From NCBI RefSeq assembly GCF_003966655.1, contig NZ_AP018795.1, forward strand, positions 620,001-684,000: a DNA stretch of 64,000 nucleotides. The letters run 5' to 3'. Source of the DNA: Acidithiobacillus ferridurans (GTDB lineage Bacteria; Pseudomonadota; Gammaproteobacteria; Acidithiobacillales; Acidithiobacillaceae). The notes under the pieces are model-generated. The model was not told the DNA's origin. It was given only the letters and a program-made list of their open reading frames with translations, and did not search any database. A program made the position numbers and the translations under genes. Shown in pieces: positions 1 to 44,991 of this stretch (position 1 is its first letter; every line of letters starts with the position of its first letter).

Positions 1-751
1 GCTCGGCATGCAAACGCGTAGCCACTGCGCTGGCAAAATCCGGGTGGCAGTTGAGTCCGGTACCGACCGCCGTGCCGCCCAGTGCCAGGGCATAAAGACC
101 GGGCAGAGTCTGCTCCAGGCTGCGAACACCCTGCTGCAATTGCGCCAGGTAACCGGAGAACTCCTGCCCCAGAGTCAGTGGCACCGCATCCATCAGATGG
201 GTACGCCCGACCTTGATGAGGTGGGCAAAATCCTCCGTCTTGCGCTGCAGTGTCCCTTCCAGGTGCGCCAAGGCGGGCAAAAGTCCCTGATGCACCGCCA
301 AAGCCGCAGCAATATGCATGGCCGACGGAAACACATCGTTGGAAGACTGGCCCAGATTGACGTGATCGTTGGGATGTATCGGCATCTTGCTGCCCCGGGG
401 CTGCCCCGCCATTTCATTGGCCCGGTTGGCGATGACCTCATTGACGTTCATGTTGCTCTGGGTGCCACTGCCCGTCTGCCAGACCCGCAGGGGAAACTGC
501 GTATCCCAGCGCCCCGCGACGACTTCCGCCGCAGCATCGCTGATCTTTTCGGCCAGCGTCGCATCCAGCAGACCCAGCCCGGCGTTCACTGAGGCGGCCG
601 CGCGCTTGATCCGCGCCAGGGCGTGGATCACCGGCAGGGGCATCTGCTCCATACCAATGGCGAAATAACGCAGGGAGCGCTGGGTCTGGGCGCCCCAGAG
701 GGCGTCGTCTTCCACCTCCATAACCCCCATGCTGTCCGTTTCCTGACGCAT
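1..751 (-). CDS. fumC: Fumarate hydratase class II, partial (N-terminal ~250 residues)
   Basis: Reading the minus strand from an ATG at 751 gives an uninterrupted frame to the window edge, so the C-terminal part is outside. The frame has the class II fumarase pattern: a [16 protein letters not shown] block around residue 100, an HPNDHVN segment and a [13 protein letters not shown] segment shortly after. The enzyme interconverts fumarate and malate in the TCA cycle as a soluble homotetramer. The GSS-MPxKVNP signature of the superfamily would lie beyond the edge and cannot be checked. The start lies 2 bases after the pepF stop, so the two are probably cotranscribed. Aspartase and argininosuccinate lyase are relatives, but the motif spelling favours FumC. 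Confidence 0.88.
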
Positions 752-37732: not shown

Positions 37733-37787
37733 TTGACGAACCCAATATATGTGCTAAATTATCTATTGAGATGTCTATATATTGTGG
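37733..37787 (+). promoter_or_regulatory. nrdD promoter with two NrdR-like boxes
   Basis: A -35 TTGACG (37733) and -10 TAAATT (37755) are 16 bases apart. Two palindromic A/T cores resemble the NrdR box (ACAC-WATATATW-GTGT): CCAATATATGTG at 37740-37755 and CTATATATTGTGG at 37772-37787, the latter with a near-perfect right half. Their centres are 32 bp apart, the three-turn spacing typical of tandem NrdR sites. NrdR would repress when dATP is high. No FNR box was seen. Confidence 0.55.
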
Positions 37788-37843
37788 TCTACCGTCCCGA
37801 GACGCGACAGCGTCGGTTCGGTGCCGGTCGGGAGAAGATGGCG

Positions 37844-39841
37844 ATGAACGATCTTTCGATGTTGAAGCGAAACGGCGCAAGGGTGCCTTTTGATCCAGGT
37901 CGGATCTGCTCGGCTATCACCCGGGCGGGACGTGCGAGCGGCGAATTTGACGACGGCGTTGCGGAAAGAATCACCGACGTGGTTCTGGGCGCCCTGGCAC
38001 CTGATGCAGCCCATCGCGAACCCACGATTGAGCAGATTCAGGATCTGGTCGAACTGGCGCTGATGGACGAGGGCTTTTATCGCACCGCTCGCGCCTATAT
38101 TGCCTACCGCGAACAGCACCAGCGATTGCGCGGGGATCGCCAGGCGATGATAGACGCCATCACTTCCGTCAATGAATACCTGGATCGGGAGGATTGGCGG
38201 GTCAACGCCAATGCCAACCAGGGTTATTCCCTCGGCGGCCTGATCCTGAACATTGCCGGAAAAGTCACCGCGAATTACTGGCTGAGCCATGTCTATCCCG
38301 AAAAAATCGGTGCCGCCCACCGCGAGGCGGACCTGCATATCCACGATCTCGACATGTTGGCCGGTTATTGCGCCGGATGGTCCCTCCGCACCCTTTTGCA
38401 GGAGGGGTTCAACGGCGTACCGGGGAAGGTAGAGGCGGCACCGCCGCGTCACCTGTCGAGCGCCGTCGGGCAGATGGTCAACTTCCTCGGCACCCTGCAG
38501 AACGAATGGGCAGGCGCACAGGCCTTCAGTTCCTTTGATACCTATCTGGCGCCGTTCGTCCGCAAAGATGGCTTGTCCTACCGGGAGATACGCCAAAACA
38601 TCCAGGAATTCATCTATAACCTGAACGTCCCTTCGCGCTGGGGTGGCCAGACGCCGTTCACGAATGTCACCTTCGATTGGGTTTGCCCCGACGATCTGAA
38701 GGAACAGGTTCCCGTGATCGGCGGAGAGGAGATGCCTTTCCGCTATGGCGATCTGCAGGCAGAAATGGAACTGATCAATCAGGCTTATATCGAGGTGATG
38801 AGCGAAGGCGACGCCAGGGGACGGGTTTTTACTTTTCCTATACCCACCTACAACATAACGCCTGATTTTCCGTGGGATTCGGCGAATGCCGAAAGACTGT
38901 TCGCCATGACGGCCAAATACGGCCTACCCTACTTTCAGAATTTTATCAATTCCGAACTGCAGCCCAACATGGTGCGCTCCATGTGTTGTCGCCTGCAACT
39001 CGACCTGCGTGAACTGCTCAAACGCGGAAATGGTCTTTTCGGGTCCTCGGAACAGACCGGTTCCATCGGCGTGGTGACCATCAATTGTGCCAGACTGGGC
39101 TATCTCCATAAAAACGATTCGGAAGGTCTTTTCCGTCGCCTGGACGCGCTCACGGAAATGGCAAAAGAAAGTCTGGAGATCAAACGCAAAATCATCCAGA
39201 GACAAATGGACACCGGCCTTTTCCCGTACTCCAAGCGTTATCTGGGTACCTTACGCAATCATTTCTCCACCATTGGCGTGAACGGTATCCATGAAATGAT
39301 CCGCAACTTCACCGATGATCGCGAAAACATCACCACCCCTGCCGGATATGCCCTCGCCATTCGTTTTCTCGACCATGTCAGAGAACGCATGGTGGCTTTT
39401 CAGGAAGAAACCGGACACATGTATAACCTCGAGGCGACCCCTGCGGAAGGCACCACCTATCGTTTCGCCAAAGAGGATCGGAAGCGCTTTCCCGATATCT
39501 TACAGGCAGGTCTCCCGGATAAGCCGTACTACACCAACTCCTCACAATTGCCCGTAGGCTTTACGGACGACCCTTTTGAGGCCATGGAACGCCAGGAGGC
39601 GTTACAGGCGAAATACACCGGCGGAACCGTTCTTCACCTGTATATGGGGGATCGCGTCTCCAGCACGGAAGCCTGCAAGCGCCTGGTGCGCCGCGCACTG
39701 GAACGTTTTCGCCTGCCCTACATTACGGTTACGCCCACGTTTTCCATCTGCCCGGTGCATGGATATCTATCGGGGGAACATCCGTTCTGTCCGATCTGTG
39801 ATGAAGAACGACTTGCTGAAAAACGGCGGCATTCCGCCTGA
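37844..39841 (+). CDS. nrdD: Anaerobic ribonucleoside-triphosphate reductase, catalytic subunit lacking its glycyl-radical tail
   Basis: A 665-residue class III reductase. An N-terminal ATP-cone (LKRNGARVPFDPGRICSAI...) runs ~5-95, followed by the ten-stranded barrel. Conserved Cys sites include MCCRLQLDL (~380) and the barrel Cys in VVTINCARLGY (~410). The Zn-binding C-terminus has CPVHGY...CPICDEE. In ordinary NrdD the glycyl-radical loop follows this Zn site, but here the frame stops, and the loop is supplied by the next gene. ATG at 37844 has GGAG 9 bases upstream; the open frame extends farther 5' without an RBS. Makes dNTPs without oxygen. Confidence 0.9.
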   Translation: MNDLSMLKRNGARVPFDPGRICSAITRAGRASGEFDDGVAERITDVVLGALAPDAAHREPTIEQIQDLVELALMDEGFYRTARAYIAYREQHQRLRGDRQAMIDAITSVNEYLDREDWRVNANANQGYSLGGLILNIAGKVTANYWLSHVYPEKIGAAHREADLHIHDLDMLAGYCAGWSLRTLLQEGFNGVPGKVEAAPPRHLSSAVGQMVNFLGTLQNEWAGAQAFSSFDTYLAPFVRKDGLSYREIRQNIQEFIYNLNVPSRWGGQTPFTNVTFDWVCPDDLKEQVPVIGGEEMPFRYGDLQAEMELINQAYIEVMSEGDARGRVFTFPIPTYNITPDFPWDSANAERLFAMTAKYGLPYFQNFINSELQPNMVRSMCCRLQLDLRELLKRGNGLFGSSEQTGSIGVVTINCARLGYLHKNDSEGLFRRLDALTEMAKESLEIKRKIIQRQMDTGLFPYSKRYLGTLRNHFSTIGVNGIHEMIRNFTDDRENITTPAGYALAIRFLDHVRERMVAFQEETGHMYNLEATPAEGTTYRFAKEDRKRFPDILQAGLPDKPYYTNSSQLPVGFTDDPFEAMERQEALQAKYTGGTVLHLYMGDRVSSTEACKRLVRRALERFRLPYITVTPTFSICPVHGYLSGEHPFCPICDEERLAEKRRHSA

Positions 39842-39860
39842 ACCGAGAAAGGAGAATATC

Positions 39861-40067
39861 ATGTATCCTGAAATAATGAACCAAAATCCTCTTGAAATAA
39901 AACTGGCGGATGACGAAAGGCAACCCTGCGAGGTTTGGACGCGGGTCATGGGTTACCACCGACCGACTTCTTCTTTCAATATCGGCAAGCAAAGCGAGCA
40001 TTCCGAGCGCAAATACTTTGTGGAGACCGGGACGCCGGATACGGGCGTGTCGCGGCCGGTGCATTGA
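39861..40067 (+). CDS. Separately encoded glycyl-radical domain of NrdD
   Basis: A 68-residue protein starting ATG after AGAAAGGAG, 19 bases behind nrdD. Residues 20-52 (RQPCEVWTRVMGYHRP, then FNIGKQSEHSERKYF) match the C-terminal radical loop of NrdD: R-V-x-G-Y-x-x-P...F-N-x-G-K-Q-x-E...R-x-x-F. Gly31 corresponds to the Gly oxidised by the NrdG activase. The domain must associate with the barrel protein in trans, as GrcA/YfiD can for pyruvate formate-lyase. The frame shift relative to nrdD, the own RBS and the clean stop argue for a real split, not a sequencing error. Confidence 0.85.
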   Translation: MYPEIMNQNPLEIKLADDERQPCEVWTRVMGYHRPTSSFNIGKQSEHSERKYFVETGTPDTGVSRPVH

Positions 40068-40074
40068 CGCGGCG

Positions 40075-40797
40075 ATGAGCGAAGCAGCCAGCACGGTGGA
40101 TATCGGGTTACAACCCCTACCCCCATTGGGCGGTTTCGCGCGGTTCAGTACGGTGGATTATCCCGGACATTTATGCGCCGTGATATACACGCAGGGCTGC
40201 CCATGCCGCTGCCGCTACTGCCATAATCCGCATCTGCAGCAGGGGCGCGGCCAGTCCGGCATATCATGGCCGGCCATCATGGCCTGGCTGGCCACCCGAG
40301 CGGGATTACTGGATGCGGTGGCGTTTTGTGGTGGCGAACCCACCGCTCATAAATCGTTACGGGCGGCGCTTCAGCAGGTGCGGGAACTGGGATTTGGCAC
40401 CGCCCTGCACACATCCGGAATCTATCCCTACCAATTTTCGCAAATGTTGCCCTATATCGATTGGGTAGGCTTTGACATCAAGGCGCCCCCCGCCCGTTAT
40501 GCCGCCGTCACCGGCGTGCCGGGAAGCGGCGCCCGGGTGCAGGACTCCGTAGAATGGTTGTTATCCGGCAAGGTGGCTTATGAAATCAGAACCACGGTAC
40601 ACCCGGCCATACTCGATACCGCGGACCTGATCGCGATAGCGCGCTGGCTGAAGCTTCTGGGAGTTTCCCGCTGGGTACTGCAATCTTTCAACCCGGCAGG
40701 ATGCGTGAATGGGGATCTGGTCACTAGCTACGCGCCGATCGACCATGAACTGCTCGATGAGTTGCGTGGATACGTGCCCGATATCTCGGTGAGATAG
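40075..40797 (+). CDS. nrdG: Anaerobic ribonucleotide reductase activating protein (radical SAM)
   Basis: A 240-residue radical-SAM protein. The cluster motif C-x3-C-x2-C is CPCRCRYC (~43-50), followed by the SAM-binding FCGGEPT (~83-89). It generates the glycyl radical on the 68-residue subunit encoded 7 bases upstream. It is longer than E. coli NrdG (154) and of the NrdG2/PflA-like subtype. Convergent with the lipoate-ligase fusion gene, 7 bases apart. Confidence 0.9.
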   Translation: MSEAASTVDIGLQPLPPLGGFARFSTVDYPGHLCAVIYTQGCPCRCRYCHNPHLQQGRGQSGISWPAIMAWLATRAGLLDAVAFCGGEPTAHKSLRAALQQVRELGFGTALHTSGIYPYQFSQMLPYIDWVGFDIKAPPARYAAVTGVPGSGARVQDSVEWLLSGKVAYEIRTTVHPAILDTADLIAIARWLKLLGVSRWVLQSFNPAGCVNGDLVTSYAPIDHELLDELRGYVPDISVR

Positions 40798-40804
40798 TCC
40801 AAGG

Positions 40805-42337
40805 CTAATGACAGGCGTTGCTCTGATGCGCGATATGGATCACCTTTGTCGCCACTTCCAGATCTATTGCGGATTCGGCCACGAATTTACCAGAATATGC
40901 CGCCTGCTCCTGCAGGAGCTCATAACAGTTGGCACCCGCTATATCCAACAACAATGCCGGAATACCTGCCGCCCTGAACGCGTCTTCATGCTTGATATAA
41001 AAATTATTGCAGCACATTCCGATATAGCATCGGGCATCTTGCACCTTGAGCGTTTTCAGTGTCCGTTCCAGATGCTCAAAGTTTTTTACGGTGGTGACCT
41101 TTAATCCCTGCCTTCCGGCCAGGTCGTATATTTCACCGACGTCACATTTTCCGCAGCGGGAGCATCCATCCCTATGCCGCCATTTGCACCATGCCGGCTT
41201 GGCACAGTATGGCACCAGCACCGCCTCCGCCTGCGCGGCGATTTCCATGGCGTCCATATCTCCGTCAGGATCATGGACCATGAACGAATTGGCTGCAGAC
41301 GCAGTTATGGCAAGTTGCTGCGCTATCCGGCTGCGCTCGAACAGTCTGTGAAATAATTGTAGGACCTGTCCGGGGGTAAATCCGGACATCTCCCACCGTA
41401 GATCATAAAGGAGGCTTTCCATGCGCTGTGATATTTCACCTTCCGACGCGCCGTACCATACAGACTGAATTTTTTTAAAGAGGTGGTGTGGCATGACGTA
41501 GACATTGCCAGCGATTTTTGCGGAAGATATCCTGAGTTCGTCGTCCAGAGTGATGCTGCCGTGGAGAACGCCACCGGATGTCGCCAGAAAGCCGCTATAG
41601 GTGCGGCCGTGGTCTGGTTCAGGAAATTGCTCCTGAGCGCCGCGCGGGCTGTGGGATACGCTGTCTATCCACGGCGTAGGTACGAGGGTTTCCAGGTTGC
41701 ACATTTGTGCCATGAACCGCGCCAGGGATTCCTTTAGATTGTCCAGATCCGCTGCGCTCCGGTTTTGTAGCGTAGTGAAGTGGAGACCGGCGGCATGTAT
41801 GCCGTCCACTGTCAGCTTCTCTTTGGGCACGCGCAACGCGCGAAGCATCGTACTGATGTCCAAGGATCTGTATAGCGTGCCATTCGCGACGATGACATCA
41901 TCCTGCATTCCGACGTAGACGCTGCCCAGCTTCCGGTTGTTTGCGTAGATATCGTTTGGTTTATGGAAATAGACATTTTCGTATCCGCTATTGCTCAGGC
42001 CGTTGCAAACCGCCATACAAAGCCTTTCCAACCATTGTGCCATACTGAACTCCTGCGCCTGTATGGTCAGGCTCCAGGCAACCTGGTCAGGATACAGATA
42101 TGCCGTTCCGCCCCCTGTTATGCGGCGGATAACCGGTATGGACCTGGCCCGACAATAAGCCATTCGCACGGCAAAGTCCTGGTCCTCGAAGGCGCCCAGG
42201 GCCACCGCGTGGCGATTTTCATAAAAACGCAATAATGGTAGCGATTCCATGCGCGTAACGATCATCTGATGCGAGTCGAGAATGATATTATCTGCGGCAT
42301 CACGAAGCCCGCTATCTCCCCATAACAGCTTATCCAT
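40805..42337 (-). CDS. Lipoate-protein ligase A-like protein fused to DUF116
   Basis: A 510-residue protein with a perfect GGAAGGAGGT before the ATG at 42337. Residues ~1-235 are an LplA-type ligase: RRITGGGTAY (lipoyl-adenylate loop) and NDIYANNRKLGSVYVG with the adenylate-contacting Lys. Residues ~260-340 resemble the LplA accessory domain (GSITLDDELRISSAKIAG). Residues ~380-500 are DUF116-like, Cys-rich (CSRCGKCDVGEIYDL, CYIGMCCNNF), probably metal or Fe-S binding. It follows ubiV by 13 bases in the same operon. It probably attaches lipoate or a related cofactor to a protein; the target and the link with ubiquinone synthesis are unknown. Confidence 0.8.
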   Translation of the reverse strand: MDKLLWGDSGLRDAADNIILDSHQMIVTRMESLPLLRFYENRHAVALGAFEDQDFAVRMAYCRARSIPVIRRITGGGTAYLYPDQVAWSLTIQAQEFSMAQWLERLCMAVCNGLSNSGYENVYFHKPNDIYANNRKLGSVYVGMQDDVIVANGTLYRSLDISTMLRALRVPKEKLTVDGIHAAGLHFTTLQNRSAADLDNLKESLARFMAQMCNLETLVPTPWIDSVSHSPRGAQEQFPEPDHGRTYSGFLATSGGVLHGSITLDDELRISSAKIAGNVYVMPHHLFKKIQSVWYGASEGEISQRMESLLYDLRWEMSGFTPGQVLQLFHRLFERSRIAQQLAITASAANSFMVHDPDGDMDAMEIAAQAEAVLVPYCAKPAWCKWRHRDGCSRCGKCDVGEIYDLAGRQGLKVTTVKNFEHLERTLKTLKVQDARCYIGMCCNNFYIKHEDAFRAAGIPALLLDIAGANCYELLQEQAAYSGKFVAESAIDLEVATKVIHIAHQSNACH

Positions 42338-42350
42338 AACACCTCCTTCC

Positions 42351-43238
42351 TCAATGTCCCGGCACAGGACCGACAGGACTGAACTGCATGCCGGGTTTGC
42401 CGTACCAATAGCCGTTACAGGCTGGCGAGCCATATTCAACCGGGGGGCTGATTTCTCCATTCAACACGGCATGGAATGCCCGTATGACGGACTCCGTGTC
42501 GGCAAGTTGCGGGGATATGCGGACGATATCTATGCCCATTTCCGACATGGCCACCGTCTCATTCAAGAGGTTGCACGGAATACCGGACTGCAGCTGAATG
42601 CCGTTGATGGTAAACAGGCGTTCCTGCTCCTGGGTGAACAGCGCCCGCCCCTCCGGATCACTGATGCAGCGCAGTTCACAGGCATCCTTACCGACGTTAT
42701 CCGCGCGGGCGGTGAAACAGCGGGCTGAAAATGACAGCGGCAGATAACCGTAGGCAAACACCTCGGTTTCCAAGGTCTCAGGCCGCGTGTCTTGTAACAT
42801 GGCAATGGTCGTGGCCGACAACTCCACCGGAGGAACCCATCGCCTGGCTCCCAGATCGGCCAGGAGCGACAATGTTTCGGCGTTATAACCATTGATATGG
42901 GGTCCGATGACGAAGGGACCCCGCCCCGCCAGCAGATGGACCGCCGCCATGTCGTTGGCTTCCACTAGGTAATGGACGTTCGCACAAATCCTTTCCAATT
43001 GCAGAAGGTCTGAATGGGCTTCCAGAAGGGCCAGTGTGGACAGCACGACCTCCTTGCCCGCGTCGGTCAGACGCGCCGCGATGTCGAGCCAGTCGGCGCT
43101 GCGCAGGGCGCGTCGTTTGGCGCACACGGTCTCACCCAGATAGACGATGTCCACCGGCCAGTGTTCCGCGCGCCGGTAAAACTGCTCTATGTTTTCCTTG
43201 GACCAGTAATAGTGGATCGGGCCTAGCGAGATCTTCAT
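42351..43238 (-). CDS. ubiV: O2-independent ubiquinone biosynthesis protein UbiV (U32 family)
   Basis: A 295-residue U32-family protein starting MKISLGPIHYYW after AAGGAGA. With UbiU it hydroxylates ubiquinone precursors without oxygen. The four cluster Cys expected from E. coli UbiV are present: one in YLGETVCAKRRALRSADW (~41) and three in RCFTARADNVGKDACELRC (~175-195). It is between ubiU and the ligase/DUF116 gene on one operon. Confidence 0.9.
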   Translation of the reverse strand: MKISLGPIHYYWSKENIEQFYRRAEHWPVDIVYLGETVCAKRRALRSADWLDIAARLTDAGKEVVLSTLALLEAHSDLLQLERICANVHYLVEANDMAAVHLLAGRGPFVIGPHINGYNAETLSLLADLGARRWVPPVELSATTIAMLQDTRPETLETEVFAYGYLPLSFSARCFTARADNVGKDACELRCISDPEGRALFTQEQERLFTINGIQLQSGIPCNLLNETVAMSEMGIDIVRISPQLADTESVIRAFHAVLNGEISPPVEYGSPACNGYWYGKPGMQFSPVGPVPGH

Positions 43239-43287
43239 TCTCCACATCTCCTTATTGAAGGGCGCTGTCTTGTTGGGTAAAAATCCA

Positions 43288-44298
43288 TCAATGCCAGGGC
43301 CGGTGATAGGCCCCGAGCGTATGCGTCTGCCCTTCGGAAAGACGATCAAGCACCGCGGTCCAGTGGTTTCTGACCAGATATCGTGCCGGATCGGCGGCGC
43401 AGGTATCTATGGCTTCGCGCAGAACGCGGGCGACGGACGCCACGTAGGCCGGACTTCGCTGGCGGCCTTCCACCTTGATGGCGGCTATGCCGTGGTGCAA
43501 TAAATCCGGCAATATATCCAGAATATTCAGGCTGGTAGGCTCTTCTATGGCGTAATAGGCCTGGGCGTCCGTGTAGTAACGCCCCTTGCACAAAGTGGGG
43601 TAACCGGCCGCCTCGTTCAGGCCGTGACGGTCGATCAATACGCCGTTGAGGCGAGACTCGCGACCCAGGGCGGTCTCCTCCCAGCGTACAGACTCGGCTG
43701 GCGAACAAACGCCACTGGCATTCGGGGAGCGTCCCGTAATGTACGATGACAAGGCGCAACGGCCTTCCACCATGACGCACAGACTTCCATAGCCGAATAC
43801 TTCGATCTCCACCGGGCTGTTGGCTATGGTGTGCCAAAGCTGTTGCAAGGACAGGACCCTGGGCAGAACGGCGCGCTGAATGCCAAATCGCTGGTGGTAG
43901 AACTCCAGGGCCTTGTACGTGGTGGCGGATGCCTGCACGGAAAGATGCAAACGGAGATCGGGGTGGTGGGTTGCGGTATAACGCAACAGTCCCGGGTCCG
44001 CCATGATCACGGCGTCTATCCCCAGTTCCGCGGCGCGATTCACCGCAGTGGTCCAGACCGCCCAGTTATGTGCCTGTGGGTAGGTATTGATGGCGAGAAG
44101 CACCTTTTTGCCGGCGCGATGCGCGTATTCCAAGCCGCGCGCGGCCTCTTCCGGACCGAAGTTCAACCCCGGAAAATTGCGGGCGTTGGTATCGTCGCGA
44201 AAGCCGATATATATGGCGTCTGCACCATTATCGACCGCAGCTTTCAGGGCAGGCAGTCCGCCAGCGGGGCAGACCAATTCGGGTTTGCGGTGGTTCAT
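43288..44298 (-). CDS. ubiU: O2-independent ubiquinone biosynthesis protein UbiU (U32 family)
   Basis: A 336-residue U32 protein starting MNHRKPELVCPAGGLPALKAAVDNGADAIY, the family's characteristic N-terminus. Cluster Cys are visible in VEGRCALSSY (~175), NASGVCSPAE (~192) and YPTLCKGRYY (~232), plus one nearby, as in E. coli UbiU (4Fe-4S). It forms a heterodimer with UbiV. It starts 30 bases after ubiT. Confidence 0.92.
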   Translation of the reverse strand: MNHRKPELVCPAGGLPALKAAVDNGADAIYIGFRDDTNARNFPGLNFGPEEAARGLEYAHRAGKKVLLAINTYPQAHNWAVWTTAVNRAAELGIDAVIMADPGLLRYTATHHPDLRLHLSVQASATTYKALEFYHQRFGIQRAVLPRVLSLQQLWHTIANSPVEIEVFGYGSLCVMVEGRCALSSYITGRSPNASGVCSPAESVRWEETALGRESRLNGVLIDRHGLNEAAGYPTLCKGRYYTDAQAYYAIEEPTSLNILDILPDLLHHGIAAIKVEGRQRSPAYVASVARVLREAIDTCAADPARYLVRNHWTAVLDRLSEGQTHTLGAYHRPWH

Positions 44299-44328
44299 GT
44301 GAAATCCTTTCCGGTGTCGGGCCGATAG

Positions 44329-44865
44329 TCAGGGTTGCAGCGCACGGTCCAGCATGTCGTGCAGGTGTCTGTCGGCATGGGTCTTGCGGATGGCGTGGTC
44401 GATGGCCTGTCTGATTCGGGGGCCGAGCGGGGCAGGCAGGTAGCCGACCGGAGCCAGCCAGTCCAGGTCTATGGAATCCAGAATATTCTTGAGTTGGAGT
44501 CCAACGGAGGTTTCTCCTTCCAGGACCAGACGGCGCGCGAAGAACAGGGTATCCGGATCTTCGAGACGTAGCGCGAGGCGGCAAAGATCTTTCGCATTTC
44601 CGGCGATGCGCAAATCGACCGGACCGGCACGGGTCGGGGCGATTCTTCCTTGCCTTATCACCAAATGTAGTGATTTCCCAAGGTCGGACACCTCGACCAC
44701 GATACGCCGCCCTTCTATCGGCAAGAAATCCGCTGGATACCTCGCCAGAACCCGGTTAGCCAAGCCCATGAAAATGGTCATGATTACCGGGTCCATAAGA
44801 ATAGTTGTTGCGGCGATAAATGGACGTGTTAGGGTGCGTCCGTGTTCCATGAAGGTTTTCATCAT
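44329..44865 (-). CDS. ubiT: O2-independent ubiquinone biosynthesis accessory factor UbiT (SCP2 domain)
   Basis: A 178-residue lipid-binding SCP2-fold protein (VVEVSDLGKSLHLVIRQGRI, then the AGNAKDLCRLALRLEDPDTLFFARRLVLEGETSVGL signature near 95-130). It carries ubiquinone intermediates in the anaerobic pathway. The start is uncertain: ATG at 44865 and TTG at 44886 both lack a good ribosome-binding site. First gene of ubiT-ubiU-ubiV-ligase, divergent from the flavoprotein at 45099. Confidence 0.87.
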   Translation of the reverse strand: MMKTFMEHGRTLTRPFIAATTILMDPVIMTIFMGLANRVLARYPADFLPIEGRRIVVEVSDLGKSLHLVIRQGRIAPTRAGPVDLRIAGNAKDLCRLALRLEDPDTLFFARRLVLEGETSVGLQLKNILDSIDLDWLAPVGYLPAPLGPRIRQAIDHAIRKTHADRHLHDMLDRALQP

Positions 44866-44991
44866 AATGTTTTGGGGGGAAACCAAGCATTATTGCCAGG
44901 GGGGAATAGCGCTGCGAGCGTAAGACTGCCCTCCCCTTCCCCATTTCTCCTTTATCGGTTGCTGCGCGCTATCGGTAGCTTAATTGCGCTG

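Follow-up and report, generated by a model that had tools for sequence, protein, structure and literature searches.

A probable two-chain class III ribonucleotide reductase with a detachable radical subunit that phages may supply to the host enzyme

The class III ribonucleotide reductase (RNR) of Acidithiobacillus ferridurans is very probably a two-chain enzyme with a detachable radical subunit, and phages may supply such subunits to the enzyme of their host. In the window (the whole stretch of 64,000 nucleotides analysed here), the glycyl-radical domain (GRD) is encoded by a gene of its own, next to a catalytic chain, NrdD, that lacks it. This division is no artefact; it is old and conserved, is maintained by purifying selection, and is independent of linkage to nrdD. 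The evidence strongly indicates docking of the small chain in trans, with this chain as the sole source of the radical.

The nrdD operon and the separate radical-domain gene

The operon and its parts are as follows.

37838–39841, forward strand: nrdD, 667 aa, with an ATP cone and a class III catalytic barrel and without a GRD (profile matches)
38984–38989, forward strand: the two cysteines Cys383-Cys384 within the MCCR finger-loop motif (double-cysteine type); C383 and C384 are each present in 54/54 dereplicated split NrdDs
39749–39799, forward strand: zinc hook C638-x2-H641 ... C651-x2-C654, complete in the large chain; each of the four residues is present in 54/54 dereplicated split NrdDs, and zinc binding is assigned from the family
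39849–39854, forward strand: Shine-Dalgarno (SD) sequence AAGGAG of the radical-subunit gene, ending 6 nt ahead of the ATG
39861–40067, forward strand: GRD gene (separate glycyl-radical subunit), 68 aa, ATG start, supported by the open reading frame (ORF), profile, conservation, and dN/dS
39927–39929, forward strand: Cys23, 8 residues ahead of the radical Gly and typical of split GRDs
39951–39953, forward strand: Gly31, the predicted radical glycine, from the sequence and from the same Gly in the model of a relative (L023)
40075–40797, forward strand: nrdG, NrdG2-type radical-SAM activase, 240 aa, start chosen in this analysis (TIGR02495, 189.5 bits, cut-off 131)

The GRD protein reads MYPEIMNQNPLEIKLADDERQPCEVWTRVMGYHRPTSSFNIGKQSEHSERKYFVETGTPDTGVSRPVH, with Gly31 within R-V-M-G-Y and the residues F-N-I-G-K-Q C-terminal to the loop. 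An earlier note on this DNA had claimed that nrdD ends after its zinc-binding cysteine and that the next gene encodes only the radical loop, behind its own ribosome-binding site. Both observations were borne out: the nrdD stop codon (39839–39841) lies 13 residues past the last zinc Cys, the GRD gene follows after a 19-nt gap in a different frame with the SD sequence given above, and the two halves of the family profiles abut. Pfam NRDD (562 positions) is matched over positions 2–531 on NrdD and 530–562 on the 68-aa ORF, and PRK08270 (684 positions) over 4–650 and 649–682, respectively. NrdD scores 1126 bits against PRK08270 (cut-off 548), its barrel 586 bits against Pfam NRDD (curated cut-off 26.2), and the 68-mer 32.7 bits against PF13597 (cut-off 26.2); the ATP cone is a Pfam match as well. 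Among the features by which a class III RNR is recognized, the finger-loop cysteine, the zinc hook, and an adjacent radical-SAM activase (NrdG) are all present. The glycyl-radical loop is present too, but on a second chain, and barrel and loop do not share one polypeptide.

The surroundings of the operon fit anaerobic life, as it is adjoined by UbiV, UbiU, and UbiT (O2-independent ubiquinone synthesis; window 42351–44886, reverse strand). By eye, the genes upstream of an orphan GRD locus elsewhere (L034) also resemble UbiV/UbiU/UbiT. Downstream of nrdG (window 40805–42460, reverse strand) lies a gene for a 551-aa protein whose N-terminal half is lipoate-ligase-like, below the cut-off. Upstream of nrdD, a search with the NrdR-box consensus at up to three mismatches gave 0 matches. 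Two AT-rich half palindromes that resemble NrdR boxes, spaced by about 33 bp (window 37740–37788), do not match this consensus; they are identical in A. ferruginosus except for one end base.

One objection would be that an ordinary nrdD has been broken by a single indel, through sequencing error or as a pseudogene; the different frames of two genes only 19 nt apart and the existence of fused relatives are what one would then expect. The earlier note had asked for short GRD genes beside GRD-less nrdD in other genomes, and these exist as 114 distinct split GRD proteins. Within the genus, a separate GRD occurs in 10/17 genomes, the present one included (scored by GRD match alone, the remaining seven being without one), and the GRD of A. 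ferruginosus, the nearest named relative, is 94% identical to the 68-mer. Over the 114 cases the gap between the nrdD stop and the GRD gene ranges from −41 to +298 nt (median 33, with 13 overlaps), and the GRD is spread over the three frames relative to nrdD (52/32/30). Such a spread of gaps and frames refutes the indel, which we reject and to which we assign next to no probability. The 40-codon core of the GRD is under purifying selection, with a dN/dS of 0.041 (45 pairs, 10 genomes of the genus), which likewise argues against a pseudogene. The two circumstances named in advance as fatal to the proposal thus did not materialize: relatives are not joined by one indel, even though fused relatives do exist, and no fused copy sits elsewhere in the genome (2.92 Mb, one contig), where no other NrdD was found and the sole further NRDD match has an E value of 0.4. 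A hidden full-length nrdD is therefore rejected for this genome, which also encodes one class I/II RNR large subunit. The note's proposal of a separate protein for the radical domain is strongly supported.

Alternatively, a programmed frameshift or stop read-through could yield a fused NrdD-GRD chain, the separate ORF being merely apparent. The GRD does lie in frame past the stop in 30/114 cases, and 13 of the gaps are overlaps, yet a mechanism of this kind would have to cope with all three frames, with gaps of up to 298 nt, with several stops between the genes at some in-frame loci, and with GRD genes that stand 9.5 kb from nrdD in one genome (G604) or apart from it in cells and phages. We regard it as very improbable.

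All 114 split GRD genes begin with ATG and 113/114 have an SD sequence of at least 4 nt, with the proviso that the starts were picked for ATG and SD; nrdG lies within 400 nt downstream in 110/114. The median anti-SD pairing energy is −8.2 kcal/mol for the GRD gene, as against −6.05 for nrdD and −5.65 for nrdG (Wilcoxon p 1.8e-4 and 8e-6, respectively); the best start was taken for each gene, and the 62 of 114 loci used are those left after dropping loci without a found NrdD start or NrdG. These values are suggestive of stronger translation of the GRD than of nrdD and nrdG, and hence perhaps of its synthesis in excess.

Distribution, annotation, and history of the split

A GRD match was obtained in 16/57 genomes (the own genome included), in 15 of them as a separate gene and in one fused, and a scan of named species gave at least 540 relatives, of which 80 were kept. 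As the peptide patterns used to scan genomes and viruses include the Cys typical of split GRDs, these scans are biased toward the split form; the ratios of split to fused forms are taken only from Pfam-profile surveys, which are independent of the GRD sequence. In the class survey, 31 of 274 genomes had any match (20 split, 6 fused, and 5 weak or partial), and in the phylum survey 57 of 398 (12 split, 44 fused, and 1 weak). The excess of fused over split forms in the phylum, 44 to 12, counts against our preferred reading. It is mainly made up of the E. coli type, and the 27 of the 44 fused tails that were read are of that type (RRVCGYLG or near). The existence of fused relatives also implies that separateness is not needed for catalysis, which weighs against our preferred reading of a detachable subunit. 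Two 0.9-Mb genomes in the phylum survey hold NrdD matches with an in-frame TAA (G504:C4:123722-125521 and G473:C23:2165-3811).

Neither the class (274 genomes) nor the phylum (398 genomes) profile survey contains a genome with a GRD and no NrdD. This constant company is what would be expected if the small protein were a permanent second subunit, never exchanged, which arose by neutral gene fission and for which O2 damage is irrelevant. We come back to this alternative with the orphan copies below.

The split form is also found in Campylobacterota (on a Sulfuricurvum plasmid) and in metagenome-assembled genomes (MAGs) named Deltaproteobacteria, Opitutaceae, and Actinobacteria. In RefSeq the GRD ORF is labelled "nrdD, anaerobic ribonucleoside-triphosphate reductase" in Cupriavidus necator H16, Bradyrhizobium japonicum, Thiothrix fructosivorans, and Sulfuricurvum kujiense, and it is labelled hypothetical in a Paracoccus record. 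Some loci show further interruptions: on the Thiothrix plasmid NrdD itself is divided over two frames, and on the Bradyrhizobium plasmid an IS element interrupts it. At profile position 157, another split-type NrdD (L135:1326-3863, in G163) is interrupted in frame by about 300 aa containing a LAGLIDADG domain; this insert is probably an intein.

To follow the history of the split, we used a quickly built NrdD tree of 66 rows (54 split, 6 fused relatives, and 6 of the E. coli type), many of whose forks are weak. Dropped beforehand were rows with fewer than 420 aligned profile positions, near-copies (85% identity), the two odd rows L186 and L189, and the E. coli-type rows beyond the six. The fused L104 and L019 are outermost; next to branch off are the phage pair (L264) and the Sulfuricurvum pair, both split, and the fused L105 and L267 lie low in the clade. 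The remaining fused forms, L056 and L101 (from an A. ferrooxidans plasmid, with L266 of Acidiphilium alike), are nested within split groups and, for that reason, look re-fused. The split label requires at least five changes on this tree, three of them forced by starred branches, and the branching order points to an old split. The nested fused forms also suit a permanent subunit, in that a tether does no obvious harm.

The cysteine 8 residues ahead of the radical Gly (Cys23) occurs in 112/112 split cores, many of which were retrieved by a pattern containing that Cys, and in 59/63 phage cores from a scan without a Cys requirement. Among fused forms, the position is Cys in L056, L101, and L267, Thr in L104, L105, and L019, and Ile in L128. 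A zinc ion shared between the chains via Cys23 was considered and set aside, as all four zinc ligands are on NrdD and the Cys is absent from 4/63 phage cores.

Orphan and phage-borne radical domains

In cells the GRD gene usually stands between nrdD and nrdG, but the order is not invariable: in G604, as mentioned, GRD and nrdG together lie away from nrdD, and one MAG (G303) has GRD and nrdG, with no NrdD found in that genome. Three genomes (G302, G304, and G305) have a second, orphan GRD copy, which in G302 and G304 stands apart from nrdD. In the third, BMS3Bbin13 (G305, the same assembly as G295), a GRD (L051/L133 on contig C3) lies in a phage-like setting, next to a fragment of a class I/II reductase barrel and to RecT and a YqaJ recombinase; this genome also has a split nrdD operon.

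GRD genes are also carried by viruses. In IMG/VR, two scans detected a GRD on at least 109 different contigs (65 from the first scan and 44 new from the second, where 80 of 98 relatives were kept). Among the contigs searched whole with PF13597, 49/50 and 44/44 (93/94 in total) have a GRD but no NrdD; the remaining 15/109 were judged from their flanks alone. On the sole exception (G735/L264), a split NrdD precedes the GRD by 2 kb. The searched contigs are fragments of 4–212 kb. For 11 contigs, 20 neighbour proteins include portal, terminase, major head, tape-measure, and endolysin proteins and DNA polymerase, and these genes identify the 11 contigs as phage. Cultured phages barely show the GRD, as judged from INPHARED, with one match to query P0001 and three weak ones to a phage GRD. 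As a control, an E. coli-type GRD query found two phage relatives, both full-length NrdD.

Are these phage proteins radical subunits? They might instead serve something other than NrdD, either as inhibitors (dead-end decoys of the host NrdD or NrdG) or in another enzyme or the virion. The sampled neighbours, largely structural or lysis genes (portal, terminase, head, tail, endolysin) with some DNA metabolism, are indeed odd for a gene of dNTP supply and count against the supply reading; the NrdG2 activase was found on 0/50 phage contigs searched (of 109), and the nearest PHROGs family, phrog_4132, is of unknown function. On the other side, the radical loop and its Gly are intact in 64 phage GRDs, and this Gly is not among the residues that the scan patterns asked for. 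Beyond the loop, N and G-K are kept in 98–100% of 56 distinct phage cores. Phage cores are also close to those of cells, with a median identity of 0.82 to the nearest cell GRD core. Moreover, a class I/II RNR large subunit was found on 0/50 phage contigs searched (of 109), for which reason a partnership with a phage class I/II RNR was rejected. We therefore judge a decoy or an unrelated role unlikely. As for whether the phage GRDs form one lineage, for 57/89 cores the nearest other core is viral rather than cellular, and for 32/89 it is not.

Some phage GRDs have further peculiarities. At least three Cys precede the GRD in 9/64 of them, in a C...C...C..C pattern in eight of these. A Cys-rich stretch of this kind stands before the GRD of L218, L227, L228, L245, L246, L250, L259, and L260, in several of them as PCAHL...C.LGR...C..CAAY, and may form a separate zinc knob. 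An in-frame TGA lies inside the GRD of one of the 93 GRD-only contigs (G736/L265), as it does in a phage GRD piece on another contig (G728:C1:3893-3991), reflecting either decay or a recoded TGA.

For the permanent second subunit, the orphan copies of the three genomes and the GRD-only phages are hard to explain unless the subunit is exchangeable in trans, and the SD strength hints at excess synthesis of the GRD. This alternative consequently seems doubtful to us, albeit with a real minority chance of being right. Returning to an exchangeable subunit, we consider it somewhat probable that the GRD can be swapped in trans, that a wide range of phages carry it to keep up or restart anaerobic dNTP synthesis in the host, and that it represents, among glycyl-radical enzymes, the first spare-part protein outside pyruvate formate-lyase (PFL).

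Proposed mechanism and comparison with known systems

How the two chains would fit together was approached with models of relatives. The read-through chain of an in-frame split locus (L023) was modelled from a 28-row alignment (mean pLDDT 85.2, pTM 0.80), with a pLDDT of 87–92 for GRD residues 691–730 and 57–62 for the linker (671–690); the naturally fused L056 gave a similar pLDDT profile. Both models are tethered single chains of relatives rather than two-chain complexes, and AlphaFold has seen fused NrdDs. In VIA-align, the L023 model matches P. copri 8p2s with Z 35.1, T4 1h78 with an rmsd of 2.4 (Z 33.6), and T. maritima 4u3e with an rmsd of 2.7 (Z 32.6; model 102..735 on 5..647). The range-end offsets are 128 for 1h78, 1h7b, 1h79, and 1hk8 (129 for 1h7a) and 87 for 4col, 4com, 4coi, and 4coj (88 for 4u3e). 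Read from these offsets and not from coordinates, Gly708 of the model falls on T4 G580 and T. maritima G621, which are the radical glycines according to the accessible part of PMC4493059; with the 8p2s offset it lands on 712, one residue away from Gly711 of P. copri. The tethered model thus suggests that the GRD is placed as in solved class III enzymes.

On this basis, the enzyme would work as follows. The large chain would provide the ATP cone, barrel, MCCR finger loop, and zinc hook, and the 68-aa chain, seated by the zinc hook of NrdD, would occupy the place in the barrel that the C-terminal domain takes in fused enzymes. NrdG (SAM, 4Fe-4S) would abstract a hydrogen from Gly31, an activation assigned by family. 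It would probably do so with the GRD bound to NrdD, because activation of the analogous YfiD was undetectable without cleaved PFL (PMC8683613, accessible part). The Gly31 radical would then pass to Cys383/384 of the finger loop. When O2 strikes, it would cut the 68-mer instead of the 75-kDa chain, and the 68-mer would be swapped; a cut GRD could be replaced without remaking NrdD, being separate, cheap, and perhaps better translated. A phage with the GRD only would rely on NrdD and NrdG of its host, and by analogy with T4 Y06I for PFL, its gene product may act as a fresh radical subunit for the host's split NrdD.

One older result has to be weighed against a radical on the small chain. In C. 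necator, nrdD and nrdG are reportedly essential for anaerobic growth, and NrdD (76.2 kDa) is said to undergo oxygenolytic cleavage at G650 (both attributed to Siedow et al. 1999). In strain H16 the split locus is on pHG1, and its GRD gene encodes 66 aa. The NrdD chain of H16 without a GRD has 676 aa and 76,191 Da and lacks the radical motif. Position 650 of this chain falls on the zinc-hook Gly (C-P-T-H-G), and the matching Gly642 is invariant in a 31-row alignment that includes E. coli-type NrdDs, whose radical Gly comes later in the chain. Two possibilities follow: the radical site may have been placed on the wrong chain on the strength of a motif, or the cleavage may be a real finding, which, if truly measured, speaks against a radical on the small chain. 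According to PMC2864759, H16 nrdDG is essential for complete denitrification, and B12 relieves the defect of a plasmid-free strain. The same paper numbers the CH34 genes Rmet_5137 and Rmet_5139, which leaves room for one intervening gene.

Class III RNR and the spare-part idea are already known. Apparently new are phages with the radical domain alone and a clade of class III RNRs that usually have a gene of its own for this domain: a search of the open literature, in the partial texts it offers and with print not excluded, gave no description of a separate NrdD radical domain, nor, in the same texts, of phages carrying it alone. In the accessible part of a 2021 paper (PMC8683613), YfiD and T4 Y06I are the only validated spare parts, both for PFL, and others might exist for other glycyl-radical enzymes. 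The GRD is a concrete and widespread candidate for a second such enzyme. It makes testable the delivery of a glycyl radical in trans and the repair of an O2-killed class III RNR by a small protein. It would also explain the motif-less NrdD chain of C. necator H16, correct the annotation of small ORFs now called hypothetical or given the name of the whole enzyme, and give a function to phage genes labelled unknown (phrog_4132).

Three known systems invite comparison. With class III NrdD/NrdG (PRK08270/TIGR02487), the enzyme has in common the barrel with its ATP cone, the zinc hook, the MCCR finger loop, the R-V-x-G-Y motif, and NrdG2; the radical loop is here a separate gene product, whereas solved members have a single chain. 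The NrdD of N. bacilliformis is presumably a relative in mechanism. Finger-loop motif classes, the MCCR double-cysteine type included, are treated in the accessible text of PMC9669993. In the split class II RNR NrdJa/NrdJb of Pseudomonas, a C-terminal functional piece is likewise encoded by a separate gene, but NrdJb is an accessory Cys-rich domain, unlike the radical-carrying GRD (PMC5704485 and PMC9669993, as far as their text is accessible).

The analogy with GrcA (YfiD) drawn in the earlier note holds in part. PFL-type glycyl-radical domains have a Pfam family of their own, and the only Pfam family matched by the 68-mer at E ≤1 is NRDD, so that the GRD is NrdD-type and not PFL-type. What does not carry over is the role of a backup: GrcA stands in for PFL, which has its own radical domain and is restored after O2 cleavage, whereas NrdD here has none and the small protein is the only radical domain. 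What stands is the mechanism, which fits, and the mobility of the module, since orphan and phage copies show that it travels alone. Like GrcA/YfiD and T4 Y06I (PMC8683613, accessible part), the GRD is a small autonomous glycyl-radical domain that would act in trans and is encoded alone by hosts and phages alike.
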